From: Nostocoides australiense Ben110
Lineage (GTDB): Bacteria; Actinomycetota; Actinomycetes; Actinomycetales; Dermatophilaceae
DNA length: 37,109 bases
Direction of reading: 5' to 3'
Assembly (NCBI RefSeq): GCF_001050535.1
Contig: NZ_HG764815.1
Coordinates: 536,614 to 573,722, forward strand
This document shows, in pieces, positions 7,390-7,437 of the stretch. The notes under the pieces were generated by a model. That model saw nothing but the letters and a program-made list of their open reading frames with translations. It was not told the DNA's origin and ran no database searches. Position 1 is the stretch's first letter; each line of letters opens with the position of its first letter. The translations under genes were made by a program, and so were the position numbers.

Positions 7390-7437
7390 GATACCCATTG
7401 GTTGTTGGGGTGAGAAGCCCAACAACCAATGGGTATC
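7390..7437. terminator. Perfect 20-bp inverted repeat downstream of icd
   Basis: The arms 7390-7409 and 7418-7437 are exact reverse complements (begin GATACCCATTGG, end CCAATGGGTATC), with an 8-base loop GTGAGAAG. It starts 45 bases beyond the icd stop codon, so it could act as its transcription terminator. The arms are much richer in A and T than the surroundings and the stem is longer than a usual terminator, so a mobile-element remnant or protein-binding site is also possible. Confidence 0.6.

Follow-up and report, generated by a model that had tools for sequence, protein, structure and literature searches.

We show that the hairpin at 7390–7437 of the window (the whole stretch of 37,109 nucleotides of Nostocoides australiense Ben110 DNA analysed here) belongs to a dispersed palindromic repeat family of this actinobacterial lineage, with a unit about 68 bp long. 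The repeat is probably a SPRITE- or REP-like dispersed palindrome serving as a bidirectional hairpin at the 3' ends of transcripts. Some genomes carry several copies, built from lineage-specific arms around a common centre; the unit strongly prefers the 3' ends of genes and the gaps of convergent pairs, and at two orthologous sites (those of the genomes G173 and G082) its presence is lineage-specific.

The hairpin is the top entry among the inverted repeats of the window. The first-pass annotation had described a flawless 20 bp stem with an 8-base loop, lying in the gap between icd and a short-chain dehydrogenase (SDR) gene, and both the structure and the placement are confirmed: the stem arms are 7390–7409 and 7418–7437, the RNA folds at −37.4 kcal/mol as against −11.75 (SD 2.78) for shuffled sequences (z −9.23, with 0 of 200 dinucleotide shuffles as good), and the two genes are both on the minus strand, with 45 nt between the icd stop codon and the hairpin. 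The arms can be extended to 25 nt at 92 % complementarity (7385–7442). Within 437,109 bases of the same genome (the window plus 20 stretches of 20 kb each, about one-tenth of the whole), its score of 20 is beaten by two other hairpins, which score 31 and 21. The same annotation held the hairpin to be longer and less GC-rich than the one at 5195–5221, which does have GC-rich arms of 12 bp; its description of the arms as A/T-rich is right in this relative sense and wrong in an absolute one, since 10 of the 20 arm bases are G or C (50 % GC). As in an intrinsic terminator, a stable hairpin lies shortly 3' of a stop codon, but no U-rich tract stands 3' of it, and no T-run terminator-like site was found at 7000–7700. 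A search of Rfam at 7200–7600 gave only two miRNA models, at 22.3 of 150 and 20.2 of 90 bits, both far short of the cut-off. The icd frame is itself broken near 7586, at a run of seven C (7586–7592), by either a sequencing error or a real mutation, and a naive ORF for this reason runs through the hairpin; in the congener G003 the reading frame runs unbroken through the seven-C site and ends at the equivalent place.

Table 1. Features of the icd region (window coordinates) and copies of a second palindrome family (locus coordinates)
Feature	Position	Strand	Remarks
icd, monomeric isocitrate dehydrogenase	7483..9734	-	Stop TGA 7483-7485; start from crude gene caller
Short-chain dehydrogenase (adh_short_C2), next gene downstream of icd	6327..7187	-	Gene start 7187
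Perfect inverted repeat, 20 bp arms and 8 nt loop	7390..7437	.	From sequence, fold and repeat list
Full repeat unit, 68 positions	7380..7447	+	Covariance model R1: 78.3 bits on +, 71.0 on -
Palindrome centre (loop)	7410..7417	.	Reads GTGAGAAG; family centre GTGATCAC
Left arm box GATACCCATTGG	7390..7401	+	Common form in source genome TTACCCATYGG
Right arm box CCAATGGGTATC	7426..7437	+	Complementary to left box
Second-family copy	L135:3965-4035		
Second-family copy	L138:14305-14367		
Second-family copy	L142:12399-12472		

The exact 16-base arm has no second occurrence in the source genome (G000), but homologous palindromes were found elsewhere in it through one-mismatch, gapped-pattern and BLAST matches. 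The covariance model R1, built from eight copies of which the window copy is one, matches 14 distinct places in this genome, the eight used for building and six new ones, with best-strand E values between 3.2e-21 and 3.9e-5. The first-pass annotation had suggested a small repeat family, and had named a single genomic copy with RNA ends exactly at the stem as the finding that would speak against it; a single copy is what we find for the exact arm sequence, while 14 diverged genomic copies and further matches in relatives establish the family. Across the taxonomic family, R1 matches (E ≤ 0.01, the source genome counted) occur in 27 of 186 genomes and 14 of 53 genera, and within the genus in two of four genomes, those of the source and of G003. 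Paired positions covary: in the eight copies 10 of 22 pairs have changed on both sides, giving a covariation score of 0.308 as against 0.142 when shuffled, with 0 of 500 shuffles reaching the observed value. For comparisons between copies, 79 places were kept from 159 R1 matches (in which both strands of a place are counted). This search covered 72 sources, with L059 (genome G104) and L079 left out and two weak matches dropped (L073:345–394, E 0.017; L062:307–330, E 0.023); many genomes are represented by a single fetched place, and the 79 include orthologous pairs and one tandem duplication. In G050 two unit copies lie 240 bp apart as a tandem duplication (L100:1508–1815), the second of which was omitted from the arm-divergence and target-duplication tests. 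Among phages and plasmids no match had an E value below about 2, and viral contigs contain no exact copy of the 18-base centre. We found no description of the family in the open-licence PMC literature searched on actinobacterial palindromes or repeats or on the centre, although absence is thereby unproven, and a text search for the 14-base centre in the open-licence PMC literature returned no paper.

Placed side by side, the 79 places outline a roughly 68 bp palindrome with arms peculiar to each lineage. The consensus of the source genome is roughly NANCGAC-N4-TTACCCATYGG-N5-GGGGTGATCACCCC followed by the complement; by eye, the consensus arms are TAACGAC-N4-CTACCGCCTGGTATTGGTC in G003, TACCGCAGCGGTTACCCCTTGGTAG in G050, CCTACTGCACAGTAAGTG in G082 and GATGGTGCTGCGTCYGG in genus g50. 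Common to lineages with such differing arms is the centre GTGATCAC, often as GGGGTGATCACCCC and with variants; it is degenerate in several copies of the source genome, the window copy (GTGAGAAG) included. The exact 14-base centre is present in 54 of the 186 genomes (35 occurrences in G099, 16 in G166, 7 in G082 and 6 in G101), and in 18 of 30 loci read it stands without arms beyond a few bases; the reversed centre gave 0 matches, which is a weak control since it contains CTAG, rare in such genomes.

G099, chosen for its richness in the exact centre, displays this anatomy in most detail. One unit used in a BLAST search gave 79 matches on 40 places, and 37 distinct sequences were recovered via the outer arms (at most 4 mismatches per 15-base arm), a search into which arm conservation is partly built. 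Exactly 32 bp lie between the arms in 34 of the 37. Across these 34, GGGG and CCCC never vary, and the six bases flanking the centre on either side are nearly random; in G099 the centre is therefore kept as a sequence, at a fixed spacing, and not merely as a stem. The six-base spacers do not pair (0.27 as against 0.34 expected), and as direct repeats they match no more often than chance allows (p 0.07 to 0.91); a one-base shift in the pairing gives p of about 0.04 in each direction, and unshifted pairing is below chance. Two pairs of units on a single contig of this genome (C20:4090/69828 and C20:11788/62135) score equally, with the members of each pair on opposite strands, as would be seen if that stretch were duplicated in inverted orientation.

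Divergence between arms was measured at positions 8–24 from the centre, within a copy and between copies. A copy's own arms are more alike than arms across copies in five of the seven sets, namely G000 (0.20 within and 0.46 between; n=14, p 0.0002), G082 (0.05 and 0.20; n=11, p 0.0002), G096 (0.06 and 0.33; n=5, p 0.009), genus g50 (0.04 and 0.25; n=6 including one orthologous pair, p 0.001) and G050 (0.19 and 0.24; n=12, p 0.049). The exceptions are G003, where the difference is not significant (0.10 and 0.12; n=12, p 0.14), and G099, where there is no effect (0.30 and 0.26; n=11). Copies found by R1 are biased towards paired arms, whereas the G099 set was found by its centre and not by pairing. 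Selection for a hairpin can explain the positive sets, as can template switching between arms, which is reported to homogenise them (PMC8604942); neither accounts for G099.

With respect to genes, 42 of the 79 places lie between convergent neighbours, 30 between co-directional and 2 between divergent ones; at three of the other five only one gene was called, and two were called inside a gene, among them the window copy, which was scored in this way because of the icd frameshift. The corresponding figures for background gaps of at least 60 bp (n=224, from 28 stretches, at least three of which contain unit copies) are 37 convergent, 127 co-directional and 60 divergent. Gene calls came from a codon-usage caller of our own making, for which the training set was the window in the case of the 79 places and 21 stretches in that of the background, and a Pfam domain was present in 9 of 10 neighbour genes spot-checked. 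The 37 copies of G099 comprise 15 convergent, 12 co-directional, 6 divergent and 4 unclassified, and the divergent share (6 of the 33 classified) falls little short of the 24 % that it makes up among background intergenic bases. A Pfam scan of 93 of the 101 neighbour proteins (the eight left out being mostly duplicates) gave 160 families, none of them matched by more than four proteins.

Orthologous sites include both lineage-specific and shared copies. The gap flanks of the G173 copy are 85–95 % identical in G176, G170, G172 and G177, which have in common an ordinary GC-rich hairpin at this site, and the unit is present there in none of eight congeners. The G082 copy (L107) is flanked by a penicillin-binding protein gene and a photolyase gene. 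Four of eight congeners were read across this gap (G076, G079 and G081 being unread, and the two genes no longer adjacent in G080), and none of the four has the unit; they contain an unrelated hairpin, other sequence or almost nothing. By comparison, both members have the unit in three orthologous site pairs (L066/L076 in the same genus, L105/L119 and L088/L101 in different genera), and therefore not every copy is new and sites may be old or new. Arms differ between the members of L105/L119 and of L088/L101, and in the latter pair both flanking genes match and the gap outside the hairpin does not align. The nearest relatives of icd are in an unclassified actinobacterial MAG (84 %) and in a Pedococcus (77 %), as would suit a source among the Intrasporangiaceae/Dermatophilaceae, and no unit was seen among the icd loci of relatives that were read. 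Another hairpin, unrelated in sequence, follows icd in 16 of the 23 loci read (out of 80) in the first comparison and in 8 of the 18 relatives of a second set, the remaining loci having no hairpin or, in one case (G001), a masked gap.

An element of the REP or MITE type, mobilised in trans by a RAYT or some other transposase, would account for copies that are dispersed, intergenic and close to gene ends, and for a distribution that is patchy across genomes and lineage-specific at two sites; REPs, moreover, have a similar positional bias (PMC3733652). We nevertheless regard this origin as doubtful, given that the Y1_Tnp domain (PF01797) occurs in 4 of the 186 genomes and in 0 of the 27 with the repeat, which rules out a RAYT as the mobiliser in these genomes. 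There was also no excess of direct repeats flanking the units when target-site duplications of 2–9 bp were sought in five genomes (G000, G003, G050, G082 and G099; with 2880 offsets per genome, the smallest Poisson p was 0.0008), in a test that is blind to a constant TA, with which many units of G000, G003 and G050 start and end. All 79 BLAST matches in G099 span most of the unit, with no lone ends, and no autonomous element with the same ends was found in that genome (40 of 46 candidates scored). Finally, the 25 commonest of the 160 neighbour Pfam families include no transposase, and two TniB matches among the neighbour proteins are Clp ATPases. The miniature mobile element proposed as one possibility in the earlier annotation agrees with lineage-specific presence at two sites, but a transposase, a target duplication and an autonomous copy all failed to appear in the searches made; mobility of the unit is plausible, but unproven. 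In the source genome a half unit (L021:2042–2068) ends close to an orfA/orfB element, presumably of the IS3 type; the ends of this element differ from the unit, and its far side is without the other half.

Three further explanations concern function. It is unlikely, in our judgement, that the unit is a composite sequence-specific site for a host or mobile-element protein, recognized as DNA or as an RNA hairpin and laid out as a 14 bp central dyad plus arm boxes at a fixed spacing, with free bases between. Such a layout is what the fixed 32 bp spacing, invariant GGGG/CCCC and random, unpaired flanks of G099 resemble, and the recurrence of the centre in several genera with unrelated arms points the same way; the G099 anatomy thereby keeps the idea of a sequence-specific factor alive. 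On the other hand, the arms are unconserved between genera, which is unexpected unless the binding protein co-evolves with them, the centre is degenerate in several source-genome copies including that of the window, and the conservation seen in G099 has to be read in the light of its selection for the exact centre and of the mismatch limit of the arm search. Sites of the attC, oriT and parS kinds were considered as well but left aside. An extended form of the idea, in which the copies are chromosome-wide palindromic sites whose arm boxes are read by a fast-evolving lineage-specific factor and whose GGGG-TGATCA-CCCC centre, at a fixed spacing, is read by a shared one, with factor-driven spread and homogenisation proceeding without target duplication and with transcripts ending both ways, we consider improbable. 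A perfect 20 bp duplex is about long enough, in principle, for RNase III, and the hairpin might be a processing site for this enzyme instead of a terminator, as reported for neisserial Correia elements, transcripts of which are cleaved by RNase III (PMC10969869). We give this little credence. The first-pass annotation had likewise raised a processed RNA structure; the location at 3' ends fits a terminator or 3'-end hairpin. Most improbable is an ordinary single-copy intrinsic terminator of icd. The closeness of the hairpin to the icd stop, the single-copy exact arm and the frequent occurrence of unrelated hairpins behind icd in relatives would all suit it, but it is contradicted by the repeat family, that is, by thirteen further homologous copies in the genome and the matches in relatives.

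We therefore return to the two-way 3'-end hairpin. Both strands give a near-equally strong hairpin, so that transcripts from either side would probably be ended or protected; a copy may act in this manner on both its neighbours, and here on the icd mRNA, either as a terminator that needs no U-rich tract or as a stable hairpin at the 3' end. In Streptomyces, transcripts ending at hairpins that lack such a tract have been reported (PMC8269248). Copies reaching 3' ends would be tolerated or even useful, and hence retained, and such retention would generate the positional bias. Arm complementarity may, in most sets, be maintained because the hairpin is selected for or because template switching copies sequence from arm to arm. 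We suggest, much as was proposed for SPRITE, that a two-way 3'-end hairpin could spread as a repeat and be kept where it is harmless or supplies termination. Some observations sit uneasily with this proposal: the region 7000–7700 is without a T-run terminator-like site, arm likeness is not significant in G003 and G099, the spacers of G099 are unpaired (which hairpin selection alone does not explain) and 6 of the 33 classified G099 copies are located between divergent genes.

The unit is akin to repeats of the REP, ERIC and SPRITE kind, yet fails the tests that define REPs. SPRITE is likewise a dispersed stem–loop repeat (30 in one genome, with an 18 bp duplex); it is enriched in convergent gaps and close to 3' ends, and its target duplication is not established (PMC3049150). 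Compared by description, SPRITE differs in being AT-rich, with a uridine-rich tract and AAAA/TTTT ends (PMC3049150), whereas the unit, a palindrome spanning about 68 bp, has lineage-specific arms and no T-run. REPs, too, are short intergenic palindromes with mostly convergent or co-directional neighbours (PMC3733652), and in its dispersal among such gaps the unit corresponds to them. However, REPs are 20–40 bp long and carry an unpaired GTAG or CGTC at one end, those with GTAG being linked to RAYTs, whereas the unit extends over about 68 bp, the RAYT domain is found in none of the 27 genomes that have it, and by eye no unpaired tag of the REP type is common to the aligned copies, the TACC/GGTA of the unit lying within the paired arms. 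ERIC elements measure about 127 bp, and terminal repeats with a TA duplication mark Correia elements; for the unit, by contrast, target duplication was not found in the five genomes tested. A likeness to both lies in their being small dispersed intergenic elements able to alter mRNA 3' processing (PMC10969869). The unit also resembles transcript ends described in GC-rich bacteria, where strong hairpins without a U-rich tract, and ends on both strands, are known (PMC8269248), with the difference that ordinary terminators are mutually non-homologous and the unit copies are homologous.

The dispersed palindromes named in these papers come from Proteobacteria, streptococci and some other phyla, to which the present work adds a palindrome family in GC-rich actinobacteria without a RAYT. 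The unit is lineage-specific where relatives have other terminator-like hairpins, and its arms vary between lineages and its centre is kept. It offers a natural test of what keeps the arms complementary, selection or template switching, and of the way in which terminators are replaced over time.

Hairpins of other families were encountered in the course of the comparisons. A second, unrelated palindrome family of about 60–75 bp, GTCGAAAG...CTTTCGAC, has three copies in 437 kb of the source genome (Table 1). In G096 a near-identical strong hairpin, CGAAGGGGGCGTGGAC..., occurs twice within 2 kb (L383:16474–16513 and L383:18431–18466), and therefore repeated terminator-like hairpins of other sequence also exist. 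The congener G001, which is without R1 matches, has at L386:14044–14117 a hairpin of score 25 in which a motif of the GCACGCCTTACG/GAACTTGAGCACGCC type is repeated; it may represent a further dispersed family.
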